Source: Candidatus Hydrogenedentota bacterium | Lineage (GTDB): Bacteria > Hydrogenedentota > Hydrogenedentia > Hydrogenedentales > CAITNO01 | Direction of reading: 5' to 3' | Assembly (NCBI GenBank): GCA_029776995.1 | Contig: JAKOTZ010000121.1 | Location: 1 to 35,025, forward strand | DNA length: 35,025 nucleotides | Made by a program: the position numbers and the translations under genes | Shown here: positions 13,740 to 35,025 of the stretch, piece after piece | Position numbering within the stretch: the stretch's first letter is position 1 | Layout of the letters: each line of letters begins with the position of its first letter | The notes under the pieces: generated by a model | Seen by the model: only the letters and a program-made list of their open reading frames with translations | Databases searched by the model: none | What the model was told of the DNA's origin: nothing

Positions 13740-14612
13740 TTACGCGAGGGCGTTGAACGCGGCTTTGGCCCGTTCAAGGTTAGTGCGAAAATCGGATACT
13801 GTATCCCCTGACGGGGAAGCGGTTTCAAGGATAATCCAGCCGTTATAGCCGATGTCTGCAATAGCCTTAACAGCGGCGGCGAGATCCACCTTACCTTCGG
13901 TCAGCATCTTGCCTCCGTCCTTGAAATGGATCTGCGCGATGCGGCTGCCGAGGGAACGGATTTCAGCGGGCACGTCATAGCCGTTGTAGGTGGAGTTTCC
14001 GATGTCATAGTAGATGCGGACCGAGTCATCGCCGACCATATCCAAGAGCCGCAGGTTATCTGCTCCGGACAGGGTATTTTCAATGGCCAGGGTAACACCC
14101 GCGTCTTTGGCCCGGGAAGCGGCGCCGCGAATCCGCTCCGCGGCGACTTTCATGGCGTCCTCTTTAAGTTTTCGACCTTTACGCAGGTCCCCTTTCCCGA
14201 AGAACGCGAGCAGCATTACCGGCGCGTTCAGGTCTTTGGCGGCATCGATGGTCTGCTCGAGCCACGCGGGACCGCGTTCGTCTTCAGCCAGGGGCGCGTT
14301 ATTCAGCAACCCCATGGCCACGGAGGAGACAACGAGACCCGTACGGGCCATGGCTTCTTTGTATTTCTCCCGCAGGGCCGGATCGGCGATGGCGAGGATA
14401 TCCGCCGGGTCACCGGCAGATATTTCCACACCGTTCAGTCCGATTTTCAGGGCGAGGTCCAGGGCTTCCGGATCCAGGGCTTTACCCATGGACCAGTCAC
14501 ACGCGCCAAACCGAATCCGGCGGTCATCCCCCCATCCTTTCCGGATCCAGACGGCCGCGCCACAGGCAGCGGCAACCTGCCCGATAAAGGTTCTGCGAGA
14601 TATGTTATTCAT
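13740..14612 (-). CDS. Tat-exported sugar phosphate isomerase/epimerase-like TIM barrel
   Basis: A 290-residue protein of the xylose-isomerase-like (AP_endonuc_2) fold, with a twin-arginine signal at its N-terminus (SRRTFIGQVAAACGAAVW). The barrel shows strands such as NGVEISAG, VTLAIENT, YYDIGNS and IAQIHFKDGG; the Glu, Asp, His and late Glu (WIILETA) are likely metal ligands. Relatives isomerise sugars or, in C-glycoside deglycosidases, eliminate an aglycone from 3-keto-sugars. The ATG at 14612 is supported by AAGGAG seven bases upstream. It overlaps the histidine kinase stop by four bases (ATGA), so the two are probably translationally coupled. Export implies a non-phosphorylated substrate. 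Confidence 0.87.
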   Translation of the reverse strand: MNNISRRTFIGQVAAACGAAVWIRKGWGDDRRIRFGACDWSMGKALDPEALDLALKIGLNGVEISAGDPADILAIADPALREKYKEAMARTGLVVSSVAMGLLNNAPLAEDERGPAWLEQTIDAAKDLNAPVMLLAFFGKGDLRKGRKLKEDAMKVAAERIRGAASRAKDAGVTLAIENTLSGADNLRLLDMVGDDSVRIYYDIGNSTYNGYDVPAEIRSLGSRIAQIHFKDGGKMLTEGKVDLAAAVKAIADIGYNGWIILETASPSGDTVSDFRTNLERAKAAFNALA

Positions 14613-18517: not shown

Positions 18518-20404
18518 ATGCAGTACAGTCATTTCGGTGAATGGCTGGTAAAGAAGGGTATTATCACCCCGGCCCAGCTGGAAGAGGCCCTCCGCCGCCA
18601 ACAAAGCGGAGGCATGGGTAACCGAAAACTGGGCGAAATCCTGGTTCGGCTGGGGTACATCAGCAAGAGCCACATCACGGAAGGCCTTGCCGACCAGCTG
18701 GGGATGGAAATTGTCTCGCTTGCGGACCGGGACATTCCGCCCCGCATTCTAAGCCAGGTGCCTGGGGAAATCGCGACGCTTTACCGGGTGGTGCCGATCG
18801 CGGAGAAGGGGGACACGCTGGTGGTGGCAACGGCCGATCCCACCAACATCAACACAATAGATAATCTGCAGCGCCTTCTGGAGCGGCCGATCGAGACCGT
18901 GCTGACCATGCCGGAAGAGATCACGGAGGCGCTGGGCCGGTATTACTCGCACCGGCAGGAGACGGTGGAATCTCTGCTCTCGACGGCAAGCAGCGCGTCG
19001 ACGATGAGCACGCTGACCTCGATGTCGAACGTGAGCTCAATGGCGGACGGATCGCTGGCCAGCCTGCATTCAGTCAGTTCGCAAAGCATGGAAAGTATCG
19101 GGATGGACGAGCTGGAGGAAGCAGCCAGCGGCGTCCAGACCGCATCGGGAGGCGAAGACGCCGGGGATGAAAACAACCCGGTAGTGAAATACGTGCACCA
19201 GCTGATCATGGAGGCGTTCCGCCTCCGGGCCAGTGATATCCACGTGGAACCCGCGAAAACTACCCTGAAGATCCGGTACCGGATTGACGGCGTGATGCAG
19301 GAAATGCCCTCGCCGCCCAAACGGGCGCAGGCGTCGGTGATTTCGCGCCTGAAGATCATGGCGGGAATGGACATATCGGAGCGGCGGGTACCCCAGGACG
19401 GGCGCATCAAGATCACGCTCGGGGGCAAAATGGTGGACCTGCGGGTTAACACGCTTCCGTCGGTATACGGCGAAAGCGTGGTGATGCGTATTTTGGACAA
19501 AAGCGGCCTGATGCTGGGCCTGGGGCAGCTGGGCTTCAACGCGGAACACCAGCGCCAGTGGGAAGAACTGCTGAATTCAACCACGGGGGTGGTACTGGTT
19601 ACCGGCCCGACAGGCTCGGGCAAAACGACGACGCTTTACGCTTCGCTGCACAACCTGAACAAACCGGACGTTAAGATTATTACGGTGGAAGACCCGGTCG
19701 AGTACCAGCTGACCGGAATCAACCAGGTGCAGATCAACCATGATATCGGGTGGAACTTCGCGCGCGCGCTGCGGGCCATGTTCCGCCAGGACCCGGATAT
19801 CGTGATGGTGGGTGAAATCCGCGACCGGGAAACCGCGGAAATCGCGATCAAGGCGGCGCTGACGGGACACCTGGTCTTCTCGACGCTGCACACGAATGAT
19901 ACGGCGAGTTCTTTCACCCGCCTGATCGATATCGGGATCAAACCGTTCCTGGTGGCTTCGGGCGTACGGGCCATCCTGGCGCAGCGGCTGGTCCGGCTGA
20001 TCTGCAATTCCTGCCGGGAGCGGCACATACCGACGGAAGACGAAAAGGAACTGCTGGGCCTGAAGGTCAACTGGGACGAAGTGAAGGTGTACCATGGCCG
20101 GGGCTGTGAAATGTGCGCCGAGAAAGGATATATCGGCCGCCAGGGCGTATACGAACTGCTGCTGACCAACGATGAAATCCGGTGCCTGGTCATGAAAGGC
20201 GAAAGCGCGGGAGTAATCCGCCGGGCGGCGCGGCTGAACGGCATGATCACCATGCGCGAAGACGCGTGGCTGAAGGCCTGCCGCGGCATCACCACGCTGG
20301 AAGAAGTGATTAAGCGGACCCGGGTGGACGAGCCGCTGCATCGGGATGCCGCCATGCCCGCGGCGGTCGGTTCAGGCAACGGAAACGGACATGAAACCCA
20401 TTAG
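18518..20404 (+). CDS. PilB/GspE-family assembly ATPase (first copy)
   Basis: A 628-residue cytoplasmic hexameric ATPase that powers pilus or pseudopilus extension. An N-terminal MshEN/T2SSE_N-type domain (about 1-150, LGEILVRLGYI, ADQLGMEIVSL) is followed by an unusual Ser/Met/Thr-rich linker at about 150-200. The motor domain has Walker A GPTGSGKT at 363-370, the Walker B region DPDIVMVGEIRD at 425-436, a His box (GHLVFSTLHTNDTA) and a zinc tetracysteine (C496, C499, C530, C533). It is first in the operon, directly behind a promoter. PilB and GspE cannot be separated by sequence alone; the following pilT favours a PilB-like role. A 117-base gap with hairpin sequence separates it from pilT. 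Confidence 0.92.
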   Translation: MQYSHFGEWLVKKGIITPAQLEEALRRQQSGGMGNRKLGEILVRLGYISKSHITEGLADQLGMEIVSLADRDIPPRILSQVPGEIATLYRVVPIAEKGDTLVVATADPTNINTIDNLQRLLERPIETVLTMPEEITEALGRYYSHRQETVESLLSTASSASTMSTLTSMSNVSSMADGSLASLHSVSSQSMESIGMDELEEAASGVQTASGGEDAGDENNPVVKYVHQLIMEAFRLRASDIHVEPAKTTLKIRYRIDGVMQEMPSPPKRAQASVISRLKIMAGMDISERRVPQDGRIKITLGGKMVDLRVNTLPSVYGESVVMRILDKSGLMLGLGQLGFNAEHQRQWEELLNSTTGVVLVTGPTGSGKTTTLYASLHNLNKPDVKIITVEDPVEYQLTGINQVQINHDIGWNFARALRAMFRQDPDIVMVGEIRDRETAEIAIKAALTGHLVFSTLHTNDTASSFTRLIDIGIKPFLVASGVRAILAQRLVRLICNSCRERHIPTEDEKELLGLKVNWDEVKVYHGRGCEMCAEKGYIGRQGVYELLLTNDEIRCLVMKGESAGVIRRAARLNGMITMREDAWLKACRGITTLEEVIKRTRVDEPLHRDAAMPAAVGSGNGNGHETH

Positions 20405-20416
20405 CCCTGCCGGAGA

Positions 20417-20457
20417 GGGATGAAATCCCCACTGGACAGGCTGCTGTCCGGTTGGGG
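20417..20457 (+). other. Alternative RNA hairpins between the first ATPase and pilT
   Basis: The RNA could form a small hairpin, GGGAT-GAA-ATCCC (20417-20429), or a larger one, CCCC plus ACTGGACAG (20427-20439) with CTGTCCGGT plus GGGG (20444-20457), loop GCTG and one bulged T. The two share bases 20427-20429 and exclude each other. There is no U-tract, so this is not a standard terminator. Confidence 0.4.
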
Positions 20458-20521
20458 CGTGATGATACAGTTGACGCAAAACACGAAATAATGGAAGACG
20501 GTAATACAGAGGAAGACCTAT

Positions 20522-21631
20522 ATGCCATATGAGATGGTAAGCCTGCTGCGGATGCTGGTGGACCGGGACGGGTCGGACCTTCACCTCGCGGTGGACAACC
20601 CCCCGGTAGGCCGCGTGCACGGCCATTTGCAGTATTTTGGAGAAAACCCGCTGACACCGGAAGACACCGAACGGCTGATGAAGAGCATCGCGTCGGTGGA
20701 CAACCAGCAGGAACTGCAGGAGGTCGGAGGTTCCGACTTCGGTTTCGCGTTTGAGGACGTGGCACGGTTCCGGGTATCGATCTTTAAACAGCGCGGTTAC
20801 GTGGGGCTGGTACTCCGCCTGATTCCGCGCAAAATCCTGACGTTTGAGGAAATCGGGCTGCCGCAGTCACTGAAAGAAGTAATCACCCAGCCGCGCGGGC
20901 TGATCCTGGTAACGGGACCCACGGGATCGGGCAAATCGACCTCCCTGGCGACGATGATCGACTGGATCAACGAGAATTTTGACCATCACATCATCACCAT
21001 TGAAGACCCGATCGAATACTACCACCGGCACAAAAAGAGCATCATCACCCAGCGCGAAGTGGGCGTGGACGTGCCAAGTTTCGCGGAGGCGCTCCGGCGG
21101 GCGCTGCGGCAGGACCCGGACGTGATCCTGGTGGGCGAAATGCGCGACCTTGAAACGATCGAAGCGGCCGTGACCGCGGCTGAAACGGGCCACCTGGTGT
21201 TCGGCACGCTGCACACGACCGGCGCGGTGCGTACCATCGACCGGATCGTGGACGCCTTCCCGACGAACCAGCAGGAACAGATCCGGACCCAGCTGGCGGG
21301 CAACCTGAAGGCGGTAATATCGCAGACCCTGATTCCGCGGAAAAGCGGATTCGGACGCGTGGCGGCTTTCGAAATCATGATCACCACGCCGGCCATCCAG
21401 AACCTGATCCGCGAGAACAAATCATACCGCATCACGTCGGCCATCCAGACCGGCCACAAGTACGGCATGAACCTGCTCGACGAGCACCTGCTGGCGCTGT
21501 ACCGGAAGGGCATCTGCCGGTACGAGGACGTATTGGCCAAAGCCCAGAACGCGGAAGAATTCGAACAGCAGTGCAAGGCGCTGGGGCTTCCGACCGGAGA
21601 GGGCGCGGAAGCGCGGCGCGCGGGCGCGTAA
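20522..21631 (+). CDS. pilT: Type IV pilus retraction ATPase PilT
   Basis: A 369-residue cytoplasmic ATPase of the PilT/PilU group. It has the short PilT N-domain ([18 protein letters not shown]), Walker A GPTGSGKS at 132-139, the Walker B region [12 protein letters not shown], the His box [13 protein letters not shown] and the PilT C-terminal motif AIQNLIRE in place of the common AIRNLIRE. It lacks the tetracysteine zinc site found in the two flanking GspE/PilB ATPases, as expected. PilT disassembles the pilus, pulling subunits back into the membrane. Its position inside a pseudopilin operon suggests the fibre made here can be retracted. It is followed 20 bases later by the second GspE-like gene. 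Confidence 0.93.
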
Positions 21632-21651
21632 CGTAAAGGAATCGAACACTT

Positions 21652-23418
21652 ATGCGAGGCACAGCCGCATCAGCAACCTCCCAGCGCCGAACCAAGCCGC
21701 TGGGCGAAGTGCTGATTGAGGCGGGGATTTTGACACCCATCCAGCTGGACGAGGCGCTGCAGCGGCAGCGCCTTACGGGGGATATGCTGGGCCGGACGCT
21801 GGTTTCCCTCGGATTCTGCACGGAGCAGGACATCATCGACGCGCTGGCCGTGCAGCAGGGCATGGAACGCGTCGACCTTAACAAGATCAAGATCCCGGAA
21901 GAGGTGCTGAAGTCCATCTCGGGGGACGTGGCGCGGTTTTACAACGTCATTCCGATCCGGCTGAAAGACGGCGAACTGACCGTGGCGATGGCGGATCCGC
22001 TGAACCTGCAGACGCTGGACGACCTCCGCCAGATCACGGGCCTGCGGGTCCGGGGCGCGGTAAGCAATCCCGAGGACGTCTCGGCAGCCTGGAAGAAGAA
22101 TTACGCCTACGAGAGCGAGTCCGTGGGGCAAATGCTCGAGGAGCTCAAGGAACGGGTTGGGACCGAAGAGCTTACCCTCGAGGACATGGGCATCCAGAAG
22201 ATTATCGAGGACACCGAAAATCTGGTGGAGCTCGCCCAGCAGCCCGAAGTAATTAAGATTGTCAACCTGATCCTGCTGATGGCGGTGCAGCGCCGGGCGT
22301 CAGACATTCACTTCGAGATCTACGAGGAAGATTTCCGGGTACGGATCCGCATCGACGGGGTGCTTCACGAGGTGGTGCGTCCGCCGAAAGCGGCGCACCT
22401 GGCGATCGTGTCGCGCATCAAGGTGATCTGCAATATGGACATCGGGGAGCGGCGGCTCCCGCAGGACGCCCGGATCGAAATGAAGATCGGCGACAGCATC
22501 ATCGACGTGCGCGTGGCGACGCTGCCGACGCTGTTCGGGGAAAACGTGGTGATGCGTATCCTGGACCGGACGGCGGTCCGGATCGACCTCGCCCAGCTGG
22601 GCCTGAGCGAAGACACGTACAAAAAAGTAGTCAACACAATTCAGAAACCGAACGGGATTATCCTGGTGACGGGCCCGACGGGATCCGGTAAAACGACCAC
22701 CCTCTACGCGTGCCTGAACATCCTGAACGAACCGGGGGTTAAGATCATCACGACGGAAGACCCGGTAGAGCTTCAGATTGAACGGCTGATCCAGTGCCAG
22801 GTGCACGAGGAGATCGGGCTGACCTTCGCCGCGTGCCTGCGCGCGATTCTGCGCCAGGACCCGGATATCGTGATGGTAGGTGAAATCCGCGACCTGGAAA
22901 CGGCGCAGATCGCGGTGGAGGCGTCGCTGACGGGCCACCTGGTGCTGAGCACGCTGCACACCAACAGCGCGCCGGAAACCATCACGCGACTGCTGGACAT
23001 GGACGTGGAGCCGTTCCTGATCACGGCGTCGCTGGAGGCCGTGCTGGCGCAGCGGTTGGTGCGCACGCTCTGCCGCCACTGCCGGGAACGGTACCGCCCG
23101 ACGGAGGATGAAATGGCGCGTCTTGGGGTACCTCCGGCGTGGCGGCGGGACCCGAATTTTGGACTGTTCCGTCCGAAAGGCTGCGCGGCGTGCGACTACG
23201 TGGGGTACATGGGCCGAATCGGATTGTACGAGTTCCTGGCGGTGGATGAGCGGATCCGGGAGATGATCCTGGACCGGGCCATGGCGTTTGAAATCCGGCG
23301 GTACGCCCGCAAACACCAGGGCATGCGGGTGCTGCGCGAGGAAGGGATTATCAAGTGCGTGAAAGGGATCACCAGCGCGCAGGAGGTGATCGACCACACG
23401 GACCTTTACGAGGATTAA
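21652..23418 (+). CDS. PilB/GspE-family assembly ATPase (second copy)
   Basis: A 588-residue paralogue of the first ATPase. It has an MshEN-type N-domain (LGEVLIEAGILT, GRTLVSLGFC, ALAVQQGMERVDL), no Ser-rich linker, Walker A GPTGSGKT at 341-348, the Walker B region DPDIVMVGEIRDLETA, a His box (GHLVLSTLHTNSA) and a zinc tetracysteine (LCRHC and GCAAC). The motor is clearly the same family as the gene at 18518 but diverged, so the two are probably not a recent duplication. It is 13 bases before the platform-protein gene, which makes it the best candidate for the partner ATPase of that protein. It energises assembly from the cytoplasmic face of the inner membrane. Confidence 0.92.
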   Translation: MRGTAASATSQRRTKPLGEVLIEAGILTPIQLDEALQRQRLTGDMLGRTLVSLGFCTEQDIIDALAVQQGMERVDLNKIKIPEEVLKSISGDVARFYNVIPIRLKDGELTVAMADPLNLQTLDDLRQITGLRVRGAVSNPEDVSAAWKKNYAYESESVGQMLEELKERVGTEELTLEDMGIQKIIEDTENLVELAQQPEVIKIVNLILLMAVQRRASDIHFEIYEEDFRVRIRIDGVLHEVVRPPKAAHLAIVSRIKVICNMDIGERRLPQDARIEMKIGDSIIDVRVATLPTLFGENVVMRILDRTAVRIDLAQLGLSEDTYKKVVNTIQKPNGIILVTGPTGSGKTTTLYACLNILNEPGVKIITTEDPVELQIERLIQCQVHEEIGLTFAACLRAILRQDPDIVMVGEIRDLETAQIAVEASLTGHLVLSTLHTNSAPETITRLLDMDVEPFLITASLEAVLAQRLVRTLCRHCRERYRPTEDEMARLGVPPAWRRDPNFGLFRPKGCAACDYVGYMGRIGLYEFLAVDERIREMILDRAMAFEIRRYARKHQGMRVLREEGIIKCVKGITSAQEVIDHTDLYED

Positions 23419-23431
23419 AAGGAGTCAGGCC

Positions 23432-24682
23432 ATGCCGAAATACGCGTATTTCGCGCTGAACAAAGAAGGCAAACAGGTGTTCGGCATCATCACGGCCGAC
23501 AGCCAGGCGTTGGCCATCAACGACATCCGGTCGCTGGGGCTGTTCCCGACGAATATCCGGGAGGCCACGCGGGCGGACGAGCGGCGGGCCGCGCGGAAAA
23601 AGCGGGGCCTGGACGAGCTGTATTTCGGCGGGGTCAAGACCAAACAGCTGGTGGTGATGACGCGCCAGCTCTCGACGCTGATCGACGCCGGCCTTCCGCT
23701 GCTGCGGAGCCTGAACGTGCTGATCACCCAGCTGAAGCCCTGCAAACTGCGCGATATCCTGCGGGAAATCGCGTCGGACATCCAGTCGGGTTCGACCTTC
23801 GCGGAGGCGCTGGCGAAACATCCCAAGCAGTTTGACCGGCTGTTCGTGAACATGATCCGCGCGGGCGAGGTGGGCGGCCTGCTGGAAATCGTGCTGCAGC
23901 GCCTGGCGACGTACATGGAGCGCCGCGAAGCCCTGAAACGCCGGGTACGCAGCGCGCTGATCTACCCGATCGCGGTTATCCTGATCGCGACGGGCATCGT
24001 GATGTTCCTGCTGTTCAAAGTGGTGCCGGTATTCGCGGACATCTTCAAGGAATTCGGCGGAGAGCTTCCGGCGCCGACCCGTTTCCTGATCGCGGCGGGG
24101 GACTTCGTGATTTACAAATGGTGGCTGATGATCTCGTCGGTGTGCTGGTTCATCATCGGCCTGAAGGTGGCGTTCAAATTCAAAATCGTCAAGCGGGTGT
24201 TTGACCGGGTGATCCTCAAGGTGCCGCTGGTGGGCGACCTGGTGGTCAAAGTGGCGGTAGCGCGGTTCTCCCGGACGCTGGGCACGCTGATCACCTCGGG
24301 CGTGCCGATCCTCCAGGCGCTGAAGATCACGCGCGAGACGATCGGCAACGAGGTGATCCAGAACGCGATCGACATGGTATACGACAGCGTGAAAGAAGGC
24401 GACACGATCGCCGCGCCGCTGGACAAAAGCAAGGTGTTCCCGTCGATGGTGGTGAACATGATCGACGTGGGCGAAGAGACGGGCAGCCTGGACGCCATGC
24501 TGAACAAGGTGGCGGACATCTATGACGCAGAGGTGGAGGCGGCCGTGGAAGGCATGCTGTCCCTGCTGGAACCGATGATTATCGTGGTGCTGGGCGGCAT
24601 CATCGGGTTCATCGTGGTATCGCTGTACCTGCCGATTTTCACGCTGGGCGACCAAATCAACAACCCGGGCGGAGGAAAATAA
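23432..24682 (+). CDS. Inner-membrane platform protein PilC/GspF
   Basis: A 416-residue membrane protein with two copies of the T2SSF domain. The first contains MTRQLSTLIDAGLPLLRSL and SGSTFAEALAKHPKQFD; the second contains RFSRTLGTLITSGVPILQAL and GDTIAAPLDKSKVFPSMV. Three main membrane spans are visible: ALIYPIAVILIATGIVMFLL, a second around WWLMISSVCWFIIGL, and a C-terminal one (MIIVVLGGIIGFIVVSLYLP). The protein is the membrane turntable on which the ATPase acts to add subunits. A ribosome binding site (AAGGAG) precedes the ATG. Its length is standard for the family. A 115-base gap with paired sequences follows before the major pseudopilin gene. Confidence 0.95.
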   Translation: MPKYAYFALNKEGKQVFGIITADSQALAINDIRSLGLFPTNIREATRADERRAARKKRGLDELYFGGVKTKQLVVMTRQLSTLIDAGLPLLRSLNVLITQLKPCKLRDILREIASDIQSGSTFAEALAKHPKQFDRLFVNMIRAGEVGGLLEIVLQRLATYMERREALKRRVRSALIYPIAVILIATGIVMFLLFKVVPVFADIFKEFGGELPAPTRFLIAAGDFVIYKWWLMISSVCWFIIGLKVAFKFKIVKRVFDRVILKVPLVGDLVVKVAVARFSRTLGTLITSGVPILQALKITRETIGNEVIQNAIDMVYDSVKEGDTIAAPLDKSKVFPSMVVNMIDVGEETGSLDAMLNKVADIYDAEVEAAVEGMLSLLEPMIIVVLGGIIGFIVVSLYLPIFTLGDQINNPGGGK

Positions 24683-24797: not shown

Positions 24798-25760
24798 ATG
24801 AACAGGCATCGCAGAGCAAAGCGGGGCTTTACCCTGGTGGAACTGCTGGTGGTGATGGCCATCATATCAATTCTGGCGGCCATCGTGGTTCCCAACGTGC
24901 AGCGGTACATCGTGCGCGCGCGGGTGGCCCGGGCGGTATCGGAAATCAACGGCGCGGAACTGGCCATGACGGCCCTGCTGACCGACGCGGGAAAATCAAA
25001 CCTGAACCAACTGTTTAACCCGGATGCGGTTCGGGGATACCTGCAGCAGCAGCTGCAGCAGCAGCTGCAGCAGCAGACCAGGCTGAACCTGCTGGATGAA
25101 TCGCAGCGGGGCACGTCGGACTTTTTCAACGCGGCGGTCGCTCTGTACACCACTGTGGCATATGACCTGCTCAACTACGGCCGGAATGTACTGCGCGGAG
25201 ATGGAGACCTGGATTATCAGGCAACGTGGACGCCGGATGTAAATCTGACCCCTGCCAAACCTCTGATTGACCGGGACGTGCTGGCCAAGCTGGGCGACCA
25301 GTACATGGCCCTGGGCAATGACCCCTGGGGAAATGACTACCGGTTCTTTCCGGGACCGTGGCGGGTTCACACGAATCTGACTGGCACCCAGCAGTTTCCC
25401 CGGGCGCCGATCGTATTCCGGAAATTCACAGTGGAGCAGTCGTCAAGCGGCAGCCAGCGCGGCGCAAGGAATGACGGGTATGTCCTGAATGATGCCGCCC
25501 TGCTGAACGCGTTCGGTGACATCATTGAAAGCCCGGAAACCTGGCCGACGAACGTGGGCTACCCCGCTGAAACCGGCAAAGCGGTATACATCTGGTCGTA
25601 CGGCGCCAACCTGCGGAACGGACAAATGATCTACCAGCGCGCGTACGATATGACCGCTCCCCGTTCCTGGTATAACGCTGAGGAAGAGGGCGATATCGGC
25701 GGCGGCGACGACATCAACAACTGGGACCCGGGCGCGAGCTGGCAGCGGTTCTACAACTGA
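24798..25760 (+). CDS. Major pseudopilin, GspG-like, enlarged
   Basis: A 320-residue class III signal protein, about twice the usual GspG length. The short basic leader MNRHRRAKRG is cut by prepilin peptidase before FTLVELLVV, with Glu at mature position 5; the hydrophobic helix continues to about residue 38. A GspG-type turn, DPWGNDYRF, is at residues 175-183, the region that holds the calcium loop in GspG. Near residues 82-93 a Gln-rich insert encoded by three exact 12-bp copies gives (LQQQ)x3. AAGGAG is nine bases before the ATG. As first pseudopilin of the set it is the likely main subunit of the fibre, assembled by the ATPases and platform protein upstream. Confidence 0.87.
   Translation: MNRHRRAKRGFTLVELLVVMAIISILAAIVVPNVQRYIVRARVARAVSEINGAELAMTALLTDAGKSNLNQLFNPDAVRGYLQQQLQQQLQQQTRLNLLDESQRGTSDFFNAAVALYTTVAYDLLNYGRNVLRGDGDLDYQATWTPDVNLTPAKPLIDRDVLAKLGDQYMALGNDPWGNDYRFFPGPWRVHTNLTGTQQFPRAPIVFRKFTVEQSSSGSQRGARNDGYVLNDAALLNAFGDIIESPETWPTNVGYPAETGKAVYIWSYGANLRNGQMIYQRAYDMTAPRSWYNAEEEGDIGGGDDINNWDPGASWQRFYN
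25041..25076 (+). repeat. Exact 12-bp tandem repeat x3 in the GspG-like gene
   Basis: CTGCAGCAGCAG occurs three times head to tail, encoding LQQQ three times. Length changes of one unit would keep the frame. Confidence 0.95.
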
Positions 25761-25780
25761 TGACGGGAATCGGACATGAC

Positions 25781-25811
25781 GGGGGAAAGGCGGACCGGCC
25801 GCCTTTCTCCC
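25781..25811 (+). terminator. Strong hairpin between the GspG-like and GspH-like genes
   Basis: GGGGGAAAGGCGG (25781-25793) pairs with CCGCCTTTCTCCC (25799-25811) over 13 pairs, one of them G-U, around the loop ACCGG. Only three T residues follow (25812-25814), so termination would be partial at best. The position after the major pseudopilin gene suits a read-through attenuator or an mRNA-stabilising 3' structure. Confidence 0.5.
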
Positions 25812-25829
25812 TTTCGGATACTGAGCGGC

Positions 25830-26792
25830 ATGGAATCACCGCGTAAAACAACATCCTCCCGACTGGGGTTCACCCTGGTGGAAGTGCTGGTGGTGCTGGC
25901 GATCGTGGCCATCCTGGGAGCGCTGGCCCTGCCGGCCGCGCGGACGTTCTTCCAGGGGGAACAGGAGCGGGGCGCGCGGGAGCTGTACTCGCTGATCCGC
26001 GCGGCGCGGGTGTACGCCGCCACGTATCGGGTCAACACGGCCGTGGTGTACGACGTGGCGGACAATGTCGTCAACACGGCCGTGGTGTACGACGTGGCGG
26101 ACAATGTCCCGGACACGCTGATCCTGCAGGATCCGAACAATCCGACGGGCAACACCGTTCAGGTTCTGCGGGGCGCGATGATGGTGTACGAACTGCCCGC
26201 CAGCCGGGACCAATACGCGGGATACCACGTCCCGGTTCCTGGCTGGGAAGGATTCCAGCCGTTCATGCGGGGATACTGTGTGCTGCTGCAGGCGCCGCCG
26301 AACCATTTTTCCGCCCCGCCGGAATCAGAAGTGGGGTTTTACGCGTACAGAGATCCAAATCCGGACGACAATATTGATGATTTGAAGCTACTCTACAACT
26401 TGCCGACGCGCCTTGGGCTGCGGAACGAGGTGGATGTGATCATTGATCCGGTCATAATCGGAGGAAACGCGGATCTGTCGGTCTTCTCAACACAGCCGAG
26501 GGAAGACCAGTACGACACCTTCCCCGGCCACTGTTTTGACCCGACGGGAAAGCTGCTGCCCCCCGATGGGAGTTCGGGGGAACAGATGGAACGGTACCGG
26601 ATCTTTTTCGCGCCGATGCCGGACCGGCCGCTGTCGGAGCGGATTACCAGCCTTCGGGCGGACGCGGACCCGGATAACCCCGCCCAGGTAAGCCTTTGGC
26701 TGCAGGGCGGCCTGTCCGACGCGTTCACCATGATCGGCGTGCCGATTGAGATCTACCGGTCGACAGGCCGGGTTGAGATGGGAAAACTGTGA
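25830..26792 (+). CDS. Minor pseudopilin, GspH-like, enlarged
   Basis: A 320-residue class III signal protein, roughly twice the usual GspH size. The leader ends RLG before FTLVEVLVVLAIVAILGAL; Glu at mature position 5 is kept. The helix continues into GARELYSLIRAARVYAATYR, typical of GspH. Directly after it, VNTAVVYDVADNV is present twice in tandem, duplicating what should be the first beta-strand of the globular domain. The start at 25830 is chosen because the in-frame ATG at 25776 would put the strong hairpin at 25781-25811 inside the gene and give an over-long leader; no good ribosome binding site separates the two. The stop overlaps the next start (TGATG). Confidence 0.82.
   Translation: MESPRKTTSSRLGFTLVEVLVVLAIVAILGALALPAARTFFQGEQERGARELYSLIRAARVYAATYRVNTAVVYDVADNVVNTAVVYDVADNVPDTLILQDPNNPTGNTVQVLRGAMMVYELPASRDQYAGYHVPVPGWEGFQPFMRGYCVLLQAPPNHFSAPPESEVGFYAYRDPNPDDNIDDLKLLYNLPTRLGLRNEVDVIIDPVIIGGNADLSVFSTQPREDQYDTFPGHCFDPTGKLLPPDGSSGEQMERYRIFFAPMPDRPLSERITSLRADADPDNPAQVSLWLQGGLSDAFTMIGVPIEIYRSTGRVEMGKL
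26031..26108 (+). repeat. Exact 39-bp tandem duplication in the GspH-like gene
   Basis: Two identical copies, 26031-26069 and 26070-26108, each encode VNTAVVYDVADNV. The copies show no differences, so the event is recent, maintained, or an assembly error. Confidence 0.95.
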
Positions 26793-27211
26793 TGGAATAC
26801 CGCGGAAGACATCGCAGAGGCGGAAAGGGCAGGCGCGCGGGCTTTACCCTGCTGGAAGTGGTGGTGGCGCTGGCGATTCTCGCCGGGGGCATCGTGGCGG
26901 TTATGGCCCTGTTCCCGACGGCGCTGTACCGGCAGCAGCAGGCATCGGAACGTTCAACCATCGCGTCGCTGGCCCGGGCGAAGCTGAGCGAGGCGCGGGT
27001 TTTCGGGCCCACGTCGGCGGCAACCGGCTGGCTGGAACAAAACGCCTATCACCTGATCGAACAGGGGGCGCGGGCCTACACGGTATATGATTCGTGGCGC
27101 GCGAACGTCACGGCAGCGGCAGGTATGCCGGGGCTTTACCGGGTCACCTTCGTGGTGCGGCTGAACAGCGGCCAGACCGAGGAATTCGTCACGTATGTCA
27201 CGGAACGGTAA
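26792..27211 (+). CDS. Minor pseudopilin, GspI-like
   Basis: A 139-residue protein of normal size for GspI. The basic leader (RRGGKGRRAG) precedes FTLLEVVVALAILAGGIV with Glu at mature position 5, and the helix runs on through ALYRQQQASERSTIASLARAK, the usual GspI pattern. A beta-rich C-terminal part (YRVTFVVRLNSGQTEEFVTY) follows. The ATG at 26792 overlaps the upstream stop as TGATG, and its own 3' end overlaps the next gene by 17 bases, so the pseudopilin genes are tightly coupled. In type II systems GspI is the core of the tip complex that recruits GspJ and GspK; that order is preserved here. Confidence 0.87.
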   Translation: MEYRGRHRRGGKGRRAGFTLLEVVVALAILAGGIVAVMALFPTALYRQQQASERSTIASLARAKLSEARVFGPTSAATGWLEQNAYHLIEQGARAYTVYDSWRANVTAAAGMPGLYRVTFVVRLNSGQTEEFVTYVTER

Positions 27212-28733
27212 CACCCGCCCGCCGGCCGCGGGCCGCCTGGGATTCACCGCGATCGAACTGCTGGTGGCCATCGCGATCTTCATCACGCTGATGGCGGGGG
27301 TGACGGGGCTGTTCACGGGCATCATCCGGACCGTGCAGGGCAGCCACGCGACCATGGACGCCATGGAAAACATCCGGGCCAGCATGGCGGTGTTCGAGGC
27401 GGACCTGAAACAGTCCTTCGCGCGGTCCGACCTGGAAGACAGTTACGCGTTTTACGGGGAACCGACCGGGTTCGTGTACATCGGCGCGGACCGGACGGGC
27501 AAACTGAGCCGGGTAACTTATGTTCTCCACGTGGATCCGGAACAGACGGAATCAGACCGGCTGCAGACCCAGATCCTGCCGCTTTCGCAGCTGCGCGACG
27601 CGATCGCCCATTACCTGATGATCGACCGGGACGGGGACGGCTACACGGATTTCCAGTTCCGGGGAGTCCCGGACCAACCTCTGCGGATAGACTGGGCTGA
27701 CCCGACATCGGTATCCGCCGCGGAAGGCGCCCTGGGCGATCCGATCGTCCAGCAGCTGGTCAGCCTTTTCCCTGTACTTGGCAATGGCGTCCCAACCGGC
27801 AGTAACGCGTCGGATTTTCAGGTGGAGGTGTCATTTGACGGGCGGCGGGGCATTCTGCTGCGGTATGAAGAGCCGGGTAAAAATTCGCTGGACGATCTGG
27901 ACATAGGGCTTAATGGGGATGATCTTAGGGATCGGATACCCATGGCGGTCTACCTGGATTACGCGGGAGACTCCAATTTCGTGGCGCGGCCGATCCCGGC
28001 GAAAGACATCCCCCCGCTCCGCCGGGCGTTGCGGGCGTCCCTGTGGCTGCAGCGGATGCGGGGCGGCTTTGACGCGCCGTTCCTGCTCCCCACCGCCCCG
28101 AAAGACGCCCAGGGCATGCCCCCGGTTCCCGCTTTCTGGGCGGAAGACGGCGCCGCCAACGGAAAAACCCTGAAGGACTACGTGGTAATCCGGAACGTGC
28201 TGGTGACCGCCTGGCTGTGCGAGCCCAGCACGCTGAACTGGATCATGGGCAACGAATTCAACGGCACGCCGGTACCTGTCCCGGCGCTGGACCTGGGCTC
28301 CTTTTTCTATTACGGCGACGAATACGACGTGAGCGCGCCCTGCTTCAACGCGCTGTGGAACGTGCCGTTCCTTTCGCGGGGACTGGACCCGCGGATCGCG
28401 TCGGCGGATAACCCGAAATATTCCTGGCTGGCCTGGCAGCTGATCGCAGGCAATGACGCGCAGGGAAACCTGGTATATCCCGGAACGCTGCTGGCCAGCC
28501 GGTACTGGCTGTACCGGTACCCGCCGGAAAACTGGAGCACACTGGTTCCGCCGCTGCACCCGATCATCACGGAAAGCGGGCCGGGCAATCCGCTGGACGC
28601 GCGCCTGCCGGCATGGATCACGCCGGGACTCTGGTTTGTGGCAGACGCGCCGGGACCGCAGGGCCAGCCCTTCTGCCGGTGGGTGTCGCAGCGTATTGAT
28701 CTGCCGGTGGGCTACATGCGAGGTAGTTTCTGA
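27195..28733 (+). CDS. Minor pseudopilin, GspJ-like, strongly enlarged
   Basis: A 512-residue protein, more than twice usual GspJ length. The leader ends RLG before FTAIELLVAIAIFITLMAGV, with Glu at mature position 5. The early part (MENIRASMAVFEADLKQSF) resembles GspJ, in which a run like this follows the helix and leads to RS-type strands. An Asp-rich motif, MIDRDGDGYTDFQF, is a calcium-loop-like sequence shared in style with the next gene. The long C-terminal part is rich in Trp, Tyr and Pro (FFYYGDEYDVSAPCFN, RYWLYRYPPENW) and I do not recognise a known domain in it. It starts within the GspI-like gene and ends one base before the GspK-like start. Confidence 0.82.
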   Translation: MSRNGNTRPPAAGRLGFTAIELLVAIAIFITLMAGVTGLFTGIIRTVQGSHATMDAMENIRASMAVFEADLKQSFARSDLEDSYAFYGEPTGFVYIGADRTGKLSRVTYVLHVDPEQTESDRLQTQILPLSQLRDAIAHYLMIDRDGDGYTDFQFRGVPDQPLRIDWADPTSVSAAEGALGDPIVQQLVSLFPVLGNGVPTGSNASDFQVEVSFDGRRGILLRYEEPGKNSLDDLDIGLNGDDLRDRIPMAVYLDYAGDSNFVARPIPAKDIPPLRRALRASLWLQRMRGGFDAPFLLPTAPKDAQGMPPVPAFWAEDGAANGKTLKDYVVIRNVLVTAWLCEPSTLNWIMGNEFNGTPVPVPALDLGSFFYYGDEYDVSAPCFNALWNVPFLSRGLDPRIASADNPKYSWLAWQLIAGNDAQGNLVYPGTLLASRYWLYRYPPENWSTLVPPLHPIITESGPGNPLDARLPAWITPGLWFVADAPGPQGQPFCRWVSQRIDLPVGYMRGSF

Positions 28734-28734
28734 G

Positions 28735-31700
28735 ATGACAGGAAATTCCAGAAATCAGCAGCGGGGCTGGACGGGACAGCGCGGGGCGGCGCTGGTGGTG
28801 GTGCTGGCCATCCTGGCCGTCCTGCTGGCCATCGGACTGAGTTACTTCGCCGTCACCCGGATCGAATCCCAGATCGCCACCAACGTGGTCGGCAGCGTCC
28901 GGGCGGAACAGCTGCTGGACGGCGCGTTCGCCATCGCCCAGTACCAGCTCAATACCGACCTGAACCTGCACCCCAACGTGACCAGTAACGATTTTTCCTG
29001 GAGCAGCCTGTTCAACGGCACCGCGTTCATCGGCAAACAATGGGCGTTCCGGGATGGAAGGCCCATTTTCGACCTGACCGACGTAGAACAGGCCCTGCGC
29101 GCGCAGCGTCCCGACCTGTTCGCCAACAGCCTGGTTTACGTGAAGTTTCCGGACGGTTACCGGGAACTGCTGTTCCGGGGGCCGCGCACCCTGCCGTGGC
29201 TGTGGATTCCCCGGGCCAGCGGAAACTTAATTTTATTGTACGAGCCCGAGACGGCCGTTCAGCTGTGCAACCGGGAAGGGACGGTCATCAGCGATTCGGC
29301 CGCCAACTCGGCGCTGGGTTCAGCCGGGCTGCCGTGGCAGTTCAGCCGCCAGTGGCAGGGCGCGCCCTGGGTGCTGCCCGCTTTCTACGGAACCAGCCCG
29401 GCGTCCTCCAATACCGGTATTTACGGGAGCACGTGGGTACAGCTCCCCACTGACCTTCCTGATTCCCGGTTTCGCTACCCCCTGGAGCATATTCACCAGT
29501 GGGCGGAGGTGGACACCGACGGAGACGGATACCGGGACGCTGTTTGGCTTCCGATCCCGAAAGAGCTGGACCTGAGCCGGGACGGCGTGGACAATGATCT
29601 GGACGGTGTCGCCGATCCCATTGATTCTTCCAATGTGGACGCCCAGGGACTACCTCAACGGCTTTTTGAGCCCGGCAACCTTGTCTATCGGGTACGGCCG
29701 AGCGACGGCGGCGTCATCACGGACCTGGAACTGGAAAATCCCGCGGACATCCAGCCGAACGGCCCGTTCCGGCTGACGGTTCCGCTGCCGGGCGCCACCA
29801 CCATCATCGATATCAACAATGACGGCGTCATTACGGACGCGGACCGGCTGCCCAGCGGCGATTTCGCCTATCTGCGGATTCCGGACGCCATACCCGTTAC
29901 TGTCAACGACGGTTTCGGCAGCCGCACCGTGCTGCTGACGCTGGACGACGTGGACCGGCTGGACAACGACTACGACCGCCACGCGAACGGGTTCCAGCTG
30001 TACGCCTGCACGGATCCGAACGCGCTCAGCCGTTCCGGAATGAAGCCGCTGAACCCGGCTCTCTTTTACGGGCAGAATAATACCTGGCCGGAAGCCAGCA
30101 CCTACAGCCTGGGCGGTGTGTGGGTCGGCTACGCGGGCGAGCCGGTCAGCACCGTCATTGGGCGGGTAGCCATACGAATTACGGATGAGGCGTCGAAAGT
30201 CAACCTGAACACCGCGGGCGGATTCCGGTACGGATATGAGTCGGATGCCCTGTTGGTCCGATCGCTGGGTCAGGGAACCAGTCCCTCTGAATATGAATTC
30301 CGGATGATCCCGAGTATGGGGGTTGTCCTGTCCCTGCGGCTTTGGGGCTGGCGCGCCGGCGCGGGAAATCAGAACACCCCGGGCGGGCAGATCGATACCG
30401 TGCCGCCAACTTTGGACCTGAATAATCTGCCAACCAACCAGTGGGACTGGGACCTGGCGTTTCCCGGATACGGCCGCGTAGACGACAACACCAACGCGCT
30501 GATCCTGGCGTTCAACCGGCGGGACGACAACGGCGACGGGATTTTCGACACGGGCATCGGGCTGAATCCGTCGCCGGAATACCGCCACCCGGCCCTGCAG
30601 GATCACCTGATTTCCGGGATTCAGCCTGAATCCAGCATTCCCCCCCAGGCCCGAAACCGAAAACCGGACATGCTGGCGTCCGCCGGACTGTTGGGCATGC
30701 TGGAGGGGATCGACGAACCCGAAGAATTCCAGTTCAGCGCCCCGTTTAGGCATTTGTTTGGGGAACAGAACGGAGCAGACGACAACAAAAACGGTGTGGC
30801 GGATGAGCGCGGCAAACTGGGCGACAAAATATTCAACGACGTGACCGAGGTGGAAAAACTCGACCAGTTCGACGAGGAACGGTATGAAGTAATAAAGCAA
30901 AATACCACGGCACAGTCGGATTCCCGCAACGTGTTTTATCTGAGCACCCCGCGGGGCAATCTGGCGTTCAATAAGGTGGACCCGAATTACGCCACGCCGC
31001 TCCAGCTGGCCACTACGTTCCTGCTGGCCGAGAATCTGGGACCCCAGTTCGCGTACGACCCGGGGGCAAGCCCGGGCGCCAAATTTGCCGCGGGCCTCCG
31101 CCGGGGAGACGCCACGCTGACGGGCTACCTGTTCGGAAGCGGCTACACCCAGAGCGCGGGGGCTTACGTCCTCGCGAACGCGGCGTGGCAGACGCTGGAA
31201 GAGGACCCCTTCCTGCGCGCGCTGCAGCTGGCGGTGAATCTGGCGGACAACCGGGACCGGGACAGCCGGGCGTCGCGGATCACCCTGCCTAAAGAAGACC
31301 AGGGCCGCGTGCCCAGTGAACGGGAACGGACCGCGCCGGAAGAAACCCTGCCGCTGGATCTGATCAATGACTTCAAGGTGAACTCACTGGGCACGGATCC
31401 GAACAGCCGGCGCCTGGACAATACGGACCCATGGTGGGAAGCCGAGACGGGTAACAAACGCAGAATCAGTTACACGGTGGCGGGCGCGGACGCCATCCGC
31501 ATCAACGAGGTAATGGCGCGTCCGGTCCGGCGGATCGAAGCGGAAACCAACCGTACCGACAACCCGACAATAAACACCAATCCCTCGCCCTATCCGGGCA
31601 TGCCTTCCTTCGACGTCGCCTCGGTGGGCGGCACGCTGAGCAGCGCGTCCAATTACCTGGGCGACCGGACCGTGGTCAACCTGCCCGCCAACCAGGTGTA

Positions 31701-34700
31701 TGAGATAGCCATCCGCGCATCGGACTGGACCCTGCCGCCGGGCCGGTATTACCTGATGGTCAACGTAACCGATGAAAACGGGAACATGACCGTTACCGAT
31801 TCGGGCGTGCTGGACTATTGCGTCCGAAACACGGACGCAACCGCGCCCGGCATGGCGGATGAGGCTGCGTATGATACCTATATCAACACGCTGATTCAGA
31901 ACACGCTGGCTGTTTTTGCGCCACCGTCCGGCTCACCGCTGGAAGCCGAAGTAAACCAGCTGGCGGTGGACCTGTATACCCTCATCCAGTATGATGCCGT
32001 CTGGAAAACCGTGGATGAGACGGAGTATCTTGCCACCCCAAACCGCAAGACCAATGGTGTCGGTACGCCGATGGGGTGGATTTTCCTTCCCGGAAGCCAG
32101 CCTGACAGCTGGGAAGTTCCGGATGAAACCGAACTTCCGGCTACCTATCCTGAAATCTACAACTGGATTCAGACCACCCAGGGACTTACCACTCCGGCCG
32201 AGATTCAACAATGGTTCGCGGAAAACATCTGGAATGCCGTTACCGGATTCTACTTCTCGGATAATCTTTTCGGAATACCGGGACCTGGTGTTCAAACCTA
32301 CACGGTGTCCGTACCGGATGCGTCCAGCGGGCTGGAACTGCGCGTGGCCATCCGGATCAACCCGGATGCGTCAGGAACGGTATCGCTCAATTTCTTTGAC
32401 CTGTCCCAGGAACCGGACCATGAATGGATCGAACTGGTCAACACGTCGGATGAGGCGGTCGACCTGAGCGGATGGAAACTGGAAATCGGCATCCCGGACG
32501 CGCCGGGCACCGCGATGGACCCGGTCATGGCGGATCCGAACAAATCCAAATGGACCATCCCGCCCGGCACGGTCATCGCCCCGAAAGGATACCTGCTGCT
32601 GGCCTTCACGGAACCGGAAAACGGAGACCAGTTCGCGAACGGCCCGGATGGCAACCGGTTTTATGACAACGGCCTCGGACTCAAACGCAGTGATGATCCC
32701 CCATCACTTCAAAACGTGACCGTGCCGCCCATTGGGACCAGAATGGAACCGGCGCTGGCCAATGCCATCAGCGCCAGCATTCCCGCGCTTTCAGACAACA
32801 CCTTCAGCGTGTTTCACCGCCCGAATGGCAACAGTCCGTTCATCGACAACGACGGGGACGGTTTAAGCTCCATTAATGCCGTGGCGGGTTCGCCGGCAGT
32901 GCTGGCGGTTGACCCGGATAACACGCTGGCAGAGCTGGCGACGGAACTGAATATCCGCCAGCCGCTGAGATCCGCGCTGGGAATCGTCTCCAGCGTCGCC
33001 GCCACCCCCGGATTTGCCCGGATTGTCAGCCTTCGGAACGATCAGCTGTTTTTGGTTAACAGCATTGATCCAGATGGGCCGCCGTATCCGCCGGCCGGTT
33101 CGGCTGATTCGTGGAATCTTGCCCAAATCGTTGATGAAAAAGACGTGGCCCGGGTGCTGCTGCGCGGAGGAATCCTTCCGAATTACCCGGACCAGGACGG
33201 GTACGACAACGACGGCGACGGCGGATATCTGGTAACCCGATCGACCGCATGGTATTTCGTACCGGGCATTCTGGACACCGACGGCGTAGATAACAACCTG
33301 GACGGATACGTGGACGTCTTCTGCGGGTACGGCTTCGGCAATCCGCTGCCGCCGGCCGGTTTCGGCAACGCGCCCAACCAGAAGCCGGATCCGACAGCGC
33401 CGAACCTCCCGATTTACAGCGAAGGCGTGGATGAGGGCCGGCTGGCGCTGGGTACCAATTTCCCCCGCTTCCGGTACGGTTACGGGTCGTATCCCATCAA
33501 CAGCGCGTATGATAACGTAAACAGCCTGGAATCCGGGGTGCTGCCCATGGCGGCCAATCCGAATCTGCCTCACCCGTCCGCGGTGACGATCGATTATACG
33601 CAGCTTTTCGATCCACTCAATCCGGTTCAGATCGCCAGCCGGCTGTGGTACGGCGGGGACGCGGAGTCGCGGAACCCGTATGTGGCGATTAATCCCTCCT
33701 GCGCGGTGGACGCGCTTCCGGCAACCGGGCCGCTGGACTCGCCGGACTGGATCGCCTTCGCTGAACGCCGGTGGAACCCCGGCGACTGCGTGGTCATTTC
33801 GCTGTACGCGGGGGAACCGTCCCCGGAAACGCTGGTGGACCGGGTAACCTACAACGAATACGACGTAATCAACCGGACCATCGACGACATTGCGGTATGT
33901 CCCTATCCGGAATCGCTGGCCCGGCCCACCTACTGGCCGCCCAACCACATGGCGCTGGATTTTTACCGGTCCCTGGAACGGAAGCACCCGCTGTACGCCG
34001 GAGACCTCCACGGCACCAGCAACCGCTGGGAAGCCAGCGACGGCGCCTACGACGACTGGGCGGACAGCCTCTCCTGGTTTGAGGCGGTACAGGACCGTTC
34101 GGATGAAGTCAGGCCGATCATGCAGGACCGTTCGGATGAAGTCAGGCCGATCATGGAGGCCATTGACAGCCGTTTCAACCTGACCGGCGACCCCGCGCTG
34201 ACCAACCCCCACCACAACCGGAACCTGCGGCTGTTCGGCCACGCGATGTCCGGGAGCCCGCTCCGGATGAACACGACCGCCCGGCTGTGGGAAAATCCGC
34301 CGGACCTGCTTGCCGCCGCGCAGCCGGCCCTGTACGTGGAGGAGGAACTCCAGATCAATCCGGCCCTGGCTTACGGTCCTCTGGAACCCTCGCTGACCGC
34401 GCGCCTCCCCCTGCGACAGTTCAGTTTCTACGGCATTACTGACGCCGCTTTTGTCGAACCCGATATGTTCCACGGTTCCAGCATTCCCGCGACGCTGCAG
34501 GAATTCTGGGCGGCTCCGAAATCTTCGACAGAAGCCGGGGAGACAAAAATCCGGGACTTCCCGGCCCATCTGCTGCGCCGGGCCCGGGTGAAACAGGGAC
34601 CCTACGCCGGCGCGGGCGACTGGCTGGACGTGCCGATGCTTTCCTTCCATTACTGGATGGGGCGGGTGGTGCCCCGGGACCTGGACGGTAACGGCGCGCC

Positions 34701-35025
34701 GGACCTGAACACGCCGCGGGGCATCGGCGCGGCAATTAACACGCGGTATATATCGGATTATGGCGGCCGGCCTCGGGAGGAAGCCTGGCCGCTGCTTAAC
34801 GCGGTCGATTTGCCGCTTCAGGCGGCATTCCAGCGGGAAGACGCCTCGGTGAAAGGCGTCACGCTGGCCAGCCTGACCGGTTCAGCCGCTCCCCAGCAGG
34901 CAGGACTGGATACCCTGGCGCTGACCACGGCGATGGAGCCGCTGGTGCTGACCGTCGGACAGGCGGATTTCATTCCGCTGTGGCCCAACCCGGTGGAATC
35001 GCCGGATCCGCTGAATACCGGCGCC
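28735..35025 (+). CDS. Giant GspK-like minor pseudopilin, 3' end beyond window
   Basis: Open for 2,097 codons to the window edge with no stop; ordinary GspK is about 300-350 residues. The N-terminus has the GspK form: GQRGAALVVVLAILAVLLAIGLSYF, lacking the Glu at position 5, as GspK does, then helix IESQIATNVVGSVRAEQLLDGA. The GspK core motif is at 483-495 (TDEASKVNLNTAG). From about 923 (INEVMARP) and clearly at 1229-1292 (EWIELVNTSDEAVDLSGWKL, then IPPGTVIAPKGYLLLAF) there is a lamin-tail-like domain. Asp-rich calcium-loop-like motifs recur, for example DTDGDGYRD, DINNDGVITDAD, DDNGDGIFD, DNDGDGLSS and DLDGNGAPD. An exact 11-residue duplication lies at 1786-1807. Probably a large fibre-tip or surface protein; partners and true length are unknown. 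Confidence 0.85.
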   Translation, partial: MTGNSRNQQRGWTGQRGAALVVVLAILAVLLAIGLSYFAVTRIESQIATNVVGSVRAEQLLDGAFAIAQYQLNTDLNLHPNVTSNDFSWSSLFNGTAFIGKQWAFRDGRPIFDLTDVEQALRAQRPDLFANSLVYVKFPDGYRELLFRGPRTLPWLWIPRASGNLILLYEPETAVQLCNREGTVISDSAANSALGSAGLPWQFSRQWQGAPWVLPAFYGTSPASSNTGIYGSTWVQLPTDLPDSRFRYPLEHIHQWAEVDTDGDGYRDAVWLPIPKELDLSRDGVDNDLDGVADPIDSSNVDAQGLPQRLFEPGNLVYRVRPSDGGVITDLELENPADIQPNGPFRLTVPLPGATTIIDINNDGVITDADRLPSGDFAYLRIPDAIPVTVNDGFGSRTVLLTLDDVDRLDNDYDRHANGFQLYACTDPNALSRSGMKPLNPALFYGQNNTWPEASTYSLGGVWVGYAGEPVSTVIGRVAIRITDEASKVNLNTAGGFRYGYESDALLVRSLGQGTSPSEYEFRMIPSMGVVLSLRLWGWRAGAGNQNTPGGQIDTVPPTLDLNNLPTNQWDWDLAFPGYGRVDDNTNALILAFNRRDDNGDGIFDTGIGLNPSPEYRHPALQDHLISGIQPESSIPPQARNRKPDMLASAGLLGMLEGIDEPEEFQFSAPFRHLFGEQNGADDNKNGVADERGKLGDKIFNDVTEVEKLDQFDEERYEVIKQNTTAQSDSRNVFYLSTPRGNLAFNKVDPNYATPLQLATTFLLAENLGPQFAYDPGASPGAKFAAGLRRGDATLTGYLFGSGYTQSAGAYVLANAAWQTLEEDPFLRALQLAVNLADNRDRDSRASRITLPKEDQGRVPSERERTAPEETLPLDLINDFKVNSLGTDPNSRRLDNTDPWWEAETGNKRRISYTVAGADAIRINEVMARPVRRIEAETNRTDNPTINTNPSPYPGMPSFDVASVGGTLSSASNYLGDRTVVNLPANQVYEIAIRASDWTLPPGRYYLMVNVTDENGNMTVTDSGVLDYCVRNTDATAPGMADEAAYDTYINTLIQNTLAVFAPPSGSPLEAEVNQLAVDLYTLIQYDAVWKTVDETEYLATPNRKTNGVGTPMGWIFLPGSQPDSWEVPDETELPATYPEIYNWIQTTQGLTTPAEIQQWFAENIWNAVTGFYFSDNLFGIPGPGVQTYTVSVPDASSGLELRVAIRINPDASGTVSLNFFDLSQEPDHEWIELVNTSDEAVDLSGWKLEIGIPDAPGTAMDPVMADPNKSKWTIPPGTVIAPKGYLLLAFTEPENGDQFANGPDGNRFYDNGLGLKRSDDPPSLQNVTVPPIGTRMEPALANAISASIPALSDNTFSVFHRPNGNSPFIDNDGDGLSSINAVAGSPAVLAVDPDNTLAELATELNIRQPLRSALGIVSSVAATPGFARIVSLRNDQLFLVNSIDPDGPPYPPAGSADSWNLAQIVDEKDVARVLLRGGILPNYPDQDGYDNDGDGGYLVTRSTAWYFVPGILDTDGVDNNLDGYVDVFCGYGFGNPLPPAGFGNAPNQKPDPTAPNLPIYSEGVDEGRLALGTNFPRFRYGYGSYPINSAYDNVNSLESGVLPMAANPNLPHPSAVTIDYTQLFDPLNPVQIASRLWYGGDAESRNPYVAINPSCAVDALPATGPLDSPDWIAFAERRWNPGDCVVISLYAGEPSPETLVDRVTYNEYDVINRTIDDIAVCPYPESLARPTYWPPNHMALDFYRSLERKHPLYAGDLHGTSNRWEASDGAYDDWADSLSWFEAVQDRSDEVRPIMQDRSDEVRPIMEAIDSRFNLTGDPALTNPHHNRNLRLFGHAMSGSPLRMNTTARLWENPPDLLAAAQPALYVEEELQINPALAYGPLEPSLTARLPLRQFSFYGITDAAFVEPDMFHGSSIPATLQEFWAAPKSSTEAGETKIRDFPAHLLRRARVKQGPYAGAGDWLDVPMLSFHYWMGRVVPRDLDGNGAPDLNTPRGIGAAINTRYISDYGGRPREEAWPLLNAVDLPLQAAFQREDASVKGVTLASLTGSAAPQQAGLDTLALTTAMEPLVLTVGQADFIPLWPNPVESPDPLNTGA
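32419..32610 (+). other. Lamin-tail-like domain coding region in the giant GspK-like gene
   Basis: Residues about 1229-1292 contain HEWIELVNTSDEAVDLSGWKL and TIPPGTVIAPKGYLLLAF, the two conserved strand blocks of the lamin-tail (LTD) immunoglobulin-like fold. In bacteria LTD is found on exported and surface proteins. A related opening motif, IRINEVMARP, lies earlier at 923, so the domain may be split by a roughly 300-residue insert. Confidence 0.7.
34090..34155 (+). repeat. Exact 33-bp tandem duplication in the giant GspK-like gene
   Basis: Two identical copies, 34090-34122 and 34123-34155, each encode QDRSDEVRPIM. It is the third perfect in-frame tandem repeat in this operon. Confidence 0.95.

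Follow-up and report, generated by a model that had tools for sequence, protein, structure and literature searches.

The stretch of DNA analysed here (the window, 35,025 nucleotides) is the whole of contig C9 of a metagenome-assembled genome (MAG) of Candidatus Hydrogenedentota. It ends in a pilus operon whose last gene encodes an exceptionally large pilin at the position of GspK, the minor pseudopilin of the type II secretion system (T2SS). The TGA stop codon of the preceding J-like gene lies at 28731-28733, and the giant gene begins one base later with an ATG at 28735 on the forward strand. From there 2,097 codons (28735-35025, residues 1-2097) run without a stop, as the initial annotation had described for the frame after a GspJ-like stop. 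The frame is interrupted solely by the contig end, which is why no stop is visible; the C-terminus was searched for elsewhere in the genome bin and was not found. Even with its 3' end missing, the predicted mature part of the protein has a mass of at least 227 kDa. The gene also contains a near-perfect in-frame tandem duplication of 33 bp (34090-34159).

The pilus operon and a separate type II secretion system

The giant gene is directly preceded, on the same strand, by the run PilB-PilT-PilB-PilC-G-H-I-J. The first gene (18518-20404) encodes a PilB/GspE-type assembly ATPase of 628 amino acids that matches T2SSE (447 bits) and MshEN; its best NCBIfam match is type_IV_pilB, at 610 bits and below the cut-off of 676. 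It is followed by a retraction ATPase of the PilT/PilU family (20522-21631, 369 amino acids; TIGR01420 at 481 bits, cut-off 319) and by another PilB/GspE-type assembly ATPase (21652-23418, 588 amino acids). The PilC/GspF platform protein (23432-24682, 416 amino acids) scores 427 bits with the GspF model (cut-off 424) and 440 bits with the PilC model (cut-off 700). Then come a G-like prepilin, the candidate major pilin (24798-25760, 320 amino acids; N_methyl and GspG N-terminus), an H-like minor prepilin (25776-26792, 338 amino acids), an I-like minor prepilin with a GTG start (26789-27211, 140 amino acids; PilV, XpsI and GspI models, all below cut-off) and a J-like minor prepilin (27195-28733, 512 amino acids; GspJ N-terminus at 36 bits). 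In each of the 12 genomes examined the same run immediately precedes the giant gene, so that the K position after G-H-I-J proposed in the initial annotation is fixed among relatives.

Assembly ATPase, retraction ATPase, platform protein and prepilins are thus found together, as in type IVa pilus operons, and no gene for GspC, GspD, GspL or GspM lies beside the giant gene. Judged by its gene content, and above all because it includes PilT, the operon reads as that of a retractable type IVa-like pilus and not of a T2SS. On other contigs of this genome PilM (C220) and PilO with a further secretin (C261) were found.

A full T2SS (D to M) is encoded on contig C139 of the same genome, several of its genes being assigned by position and similarity, and includes an ordinary GspK of 409 amino acids. 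In 7 of the 12 relatives a T2SS operon with an ordinary GspK lies directly upstream of the pilus operon and offers a natural control. Since the genome's own T2SS already has an ordinary GspK, the giant protein is not the tip of that system; the initial view of it as an enlarged T2SS tip cap does not hold, given this complete T2SS and the presence of PilT in the operon.

The PilT gene is flanked by two full PilB/GspE ATPase genes (18518-23418), and this arrangement is kept in all 12 relatives; two assembly ATPases within a single operon are unusual. Three of the upstream pilins, G, H and J, are large as well; the G protein of the genome's own T2SS has 140 amino acids. The G gene carries a CTGCAGCAGCAG repeat (25041-25076) encoding a QQQLQQQLQQQ tract, and the H gene a near-perfect in-frame tandem duplication of 39 bp (26031-26108).

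GspK landmarks and conservation in the order

The first 17 residues of the giant protein form a prepilin leader, with cleavage predicted after Gly17, and residues 18-78 a long N-terminal helix; both are encoded at 28735-28968. Its N-terminus is of the prepilin type without Glu5 (QRG/AALVVVLA), as had been noted initially, whereas Glu5 is present in the four upstream pilins (GFTLVE, GFTLVE, GFTLLE and GFTAIE). Residues 15-92 match the N-terminal part of the NCBIfam GspK model, the best E-value with that model among 18 giant members being 2.2e-10, and Verru_Chthon cassette protein A is matched more weakly; in a profile comparison the N-terminus matches ordinary GspK with a probability of 96.5%. 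An AlphaFold model of the N-terminus, of low confidence, shows a helix at residues 6-78. When the N-terminal alignment was used as a profile against solved structures, no match was obtained. A further landmark, ITDEASKVNLNTA (residues 482-494, 30178-30216), aligns to ISDEYGKINLNAL of ordinary GspK at profile positions 102-117, outscores 150 of 150 shuffles, and includes the DEASKVNLNTA motif (residues 484-494) singled out in the initial annotation. The broader statement there, which extended the match with GspK over all of the first 500 residues, is too strong: it holds for residues 15-92 (31 bits) and for the motif at 484, whereas no match was obtained for residues ~93-475.

For comparison a profile was built from 18 ordinary GspK proteins of the same order. 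It matches the giants in collinear fashion at the helix (profile positions 2-85), DE..KVNLN (102-117), GRINxNTA (223-243) and the C-terminal strand (302-324). Every landmark outscores 150 of 150 column-shuffled profiles, and in tiles set away from the landmarks nothing comparable was matched. In ordinary GspK of the order the sequence reads ISDEYGKINLN, then GRVNVNTA, then S.VFRI...AYVWR; complete relatives of the giant end in ...GRININTA...GLPGV..., followed by RF.RMANLITTRSDVFEI...VYERR. By these alignments all four landmarks are kept in order in the relatives, but spread apart: the spacings of ~100 and ~125 residues in ordinary GspK compare with about 460-610 and 1,790-2,190 in the giants. 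When the landmarks of relatives were joined, the match to the GspK model lengthened in one of two cases (2-106 instead of 2-78), which is modest support.

GspK itself (NF037980; PDB 3CI0) thus shares with the giant the Glu5-less helix, DE..K(I/V)NLN, GR(I/V)NxNTA and the C-terminal strand in the same order, the K position after G-H-I-J, and an extra domain inserted in the pilin sheet. It differs in length (340-550 amino acids within the same order against about 2,500-3,000), in having the T2SSK_1st alpha-domain where the giants have ~1,800-2,200 amino acids, and in that only the giant's operon has PilT.

A survey of relatives for the length of the gene gave complete giant genes, each ending normally at a stop codon, from 17 other genomes of the order. 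They encode 2,287-3,067 amino acids, 16 of the 17 exceeding 2,500; the gene of genome G002, whose end follows a run of N, was excluded from this set. The initial description of the protein as GspK-like and very large is therefore borne out in independent genomes. Matches to the giant protein were obtained in 49 of 60 related genomes (35 of the 38 near-complete ones), and its conserved late block in 43 of 68 genomes from the order, among them 30 of the 38 near-complete ones, nearly always in single copy. A search for related loci with residues 1-666 yielded nothing; the profile of the most conserved block did work, and the named records that it matched are Candidatus Hydrogenedentota. In one relative (L109, UBA2224) the giant is divided into frames of 1,247 and 1,142 amino acids (at 4385 and 7782), probably by a frameshift in the assembly.

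The source being a MAG contig, fusion of two genes by the assembly has to be considered as the cause of the length, all the more as DNA identity to a sister species (genome G001, contig C72) changes abruptly within the gene. Positions 31342-32694 (1,353 bp) are 100% identical to that genome; 5' of this segment identity is ~70%, and 3' of it ~94%. The change at 31342 corresponds to residue 870 and may reflect either module exchange in a recent recombination event or the mixing of strains during assembly. Architecture and length are, however, shared by the 17 other genomes, and two contigs of G001 overlap exactly by 127 bp within the gene, giving a combined frame of more than 2,300 amino acids without a stop. 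An assembly join is therefore rejected for the family and is extremely improbable as the origin of the giant's length.

Inserted modules and neighbouring genes

The landmark spacing defines two insertions. Insertion 1 (residues ~93-475, 29011-30159) lies between the helix and the DE..KVNLN strand, contains three DxDxDG-type motifs, and measures about 370-500 amino acids in the giants. Insertion 2 begins at residue 500 and continues past residue 2097 (30231-35025), the next landmark lying at ~2,100-2,800 in complete relatives; its surface modules, about 1,800-2,200 amino acids in the giants, fall within what is the alpha-domain of ordinary GspK. That domain, T2SSK_1st, which lies between two NxN motifs, was detected in none of the 18 giants and is present in the genome's own ordinary GspK (62 bits).

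Within insertion 2, residues 1212-1291 (32368-32607) match the first half of a lamin tail domain (PF00932, positions 4-69 of 109; Pfam, 34.6 bits), and this match recurs in 17 of 18 members. The giants thus join a pilin module to a domain that is not specific to type IV filaments, the arrangement by which modular pilins are recognised. An AlphaFold model of residues 1170-1885 has a mean predicted local distance difference test (pLDDT) score of only 47.5, yet lamin Ig-like domains make up the whole of its top 13 PDB matches, and it matched nothing else. The most conserved block, residues 1676-1770 (33760-34044), has confident strands in this otherwise poor model and is probably the second half of the lamin tail domain, ~370 amino acids away. 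Because joining the two halves covered PF00932 positions 4-108 with a gain of 2 bits only, the split domain is merely suggestive. The window protein further contains 9 acidic DxDxDG motifs of calcium type, compared with 0.24 expected by shuffling and none in ordinary GspK proteins.

In relatives whose complete downstream frame could be read, a secreted protein of 1,087-2,374 amino acids with beta-helix or CHRD domains is encoded directly 3' of the giant gene (L096:13120-18669, L112:12440-18325 and L094:13000-17313). These proteins have a common ending close to EQPIK.F.RE. A homologous frame is present at the start of contig C177 of the window's genome (C177:6-3392), and its product may be a partner or cargo of the giant pilin. 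Upstream of the pilus operon the window carries genes for a GH5 cellulase-family enzyme (4565-6148) and a LysM protein (7147-9549), and adjoining the operon is a gene for a hybrid PAS/GAF histidine kinase of 955 amino acids (14609-17476).

Probable place of the giant pilin in a filament

Modular pilins such as S. sanguinis PilB and PilC, CofB and ComZ display functional modules, grafted onto a pilin, at the tip of the filament (PMC8179133, PMC9934059, PMC6561018); in ComZ and GspK, as probably in the giant, the insertion is inside the pilin sheet. The largest modular pilin in a survey by the N-terminal domain IPR012902 has 860 residues (PMC8179133), whereas the giants are about three times as large as that and have two insertion sites. 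A second relative may be Verru_Chthon cassette protein A (TIGR02600, a model of 1,296 positions), three parts of which each match some giants: positions 1-69 at the N-terminus, 227-261 around KVNLN and 1202-1254 at the C-terminus. To judge from these matches it seems to be a GspK-like pilin opened in the same manner, at half the giant's size (about 1,300 amino acids). It is accompanied by the cassette pilins B, C and D, and the models of these three match the window pilins weakly. The TIGR02600 cut-off of 332 bits was passed in none of the 60 genomes (best score, 34.5 bits), and no open-access paper on the protein was found.

On the evidence above we consider it probable that the giant protein is the minor pilin at the K position, and hence at the tip, of a type IVa-like pilus that can be retracted, with a GspK-type fold opened twice to take up ~2,200 residues of surface modules. 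Several observations count against this. The score with the GspK model is 31.4 bits, below the curated cut-off of 130. Of the four landmarks three span no more than 16-23 columns, and those of the C-terminus come from relatives alone (residues ~2,100-2,800), the window showing the first two because the gene is cut by the contig end. The AlphaFold model of residues 1-1050 (mean pLDDT 48.8) matched no known structure and is too poor for a fold test. Finally, a protein of ~230-300 kDa must cross a secretin if it is to reach the outside.

It is also conceivable, if rather unlikely, that the giant caps an additional T2SS-like pseudopilus confined to the envelope, its modules recognising a cargo such as the beta-helix or CHRD protein encoded next, which is then pushed through a secretin. 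The GspK-like landmarks, the GspF score slightly above its cut-off and the large secreted protein downstream, with its homologue on C177, would all fit such a system; its main difficulties are PilT, which is in the operon in 12 of 12 genomes and to our knowledge absent from T2SS, the want of GspC, D, L or M adjoining the giant gene, and the full T2SS that the genome already holds. Still less probable is a large surface protein that uses the prepilin-type signal solely for export and anchoring and takes no part in a filament, its place in the gene order being incidental. Although the bulk of its mass is unrelated to pilins and its GspK family score is weak, the protein keeps its position behind H-I-J in an operon that is itself conserved, and its C-terminal GspK landmarks are kept past ~2,000 inserted residues, where a mere signal would have no need of them. 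The same retention of landmarks and fixed gene order make it unlikely that the giant is the exported product itself, as the initial annotation had also suggested; the adhesin or receptor likewise proposed there is plausible.

If the giant is the tip pilin of a type IVa-like pilus, prepilin peptidase would cleave it after Gly17, where the sequence has the site, and the Glu5-less helix would, by analogy with GspK, PilX and ComZ, take its place beside H, I and J at the tip of the filament and prime assembly. The G-type filament would be extended by PilB and PilC and retracted by PilT, for all of which genes are present. The inserted modules, with their lamin-tail Ig-like domain and calcium-type loops, would be displayed at the tip and may bind a surface, a polymer or another cell, and retraction would pull on the bound target. 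It has been argued that a pilin whose sheet holds a large insertion could hardly be accommodated except at the tip (PMC6561018), and a grafted module has been shown to act as an adhesin (PMC8179133). With this background we infer from the homology and the operon context that the giant pilin is most likely a tip adhesin or receptor on the outside of the cell, retracted by PilT.

Such a role would be like that of the type IVa tip adhesin PilY1, proposed as a large adhesin or receptor displayed at the tip and carried by minor pilins. PilY1 differs in having a beta-propeller and in not being a pilin. It was matched in none of the 60 genomes, a result not used as evidence because no control genome was matched either. 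Tentatively, Hydrogenedentota pili might be tipped by a single pilin of ~300 kDa that unites K-pilin and tip adhesin and replaces PilY1, held together with a second secreted protein of more than 1,000 amino acids encoded next to it, recombinational module exchange renewing the binding part.

If the giant is indeed a tip pilin, modular pilins would be extended from less than 1,000 to about 3,000 residues, and a pilin would be shown to retain its landmarks despite the insertion of about 2,200 residues. The unexplained Verru_Chthon cassette could be read as a smaller cousin of the giant-pilin family, and an uncultured phylum would gain a named candidate for gripping particles or other cells.

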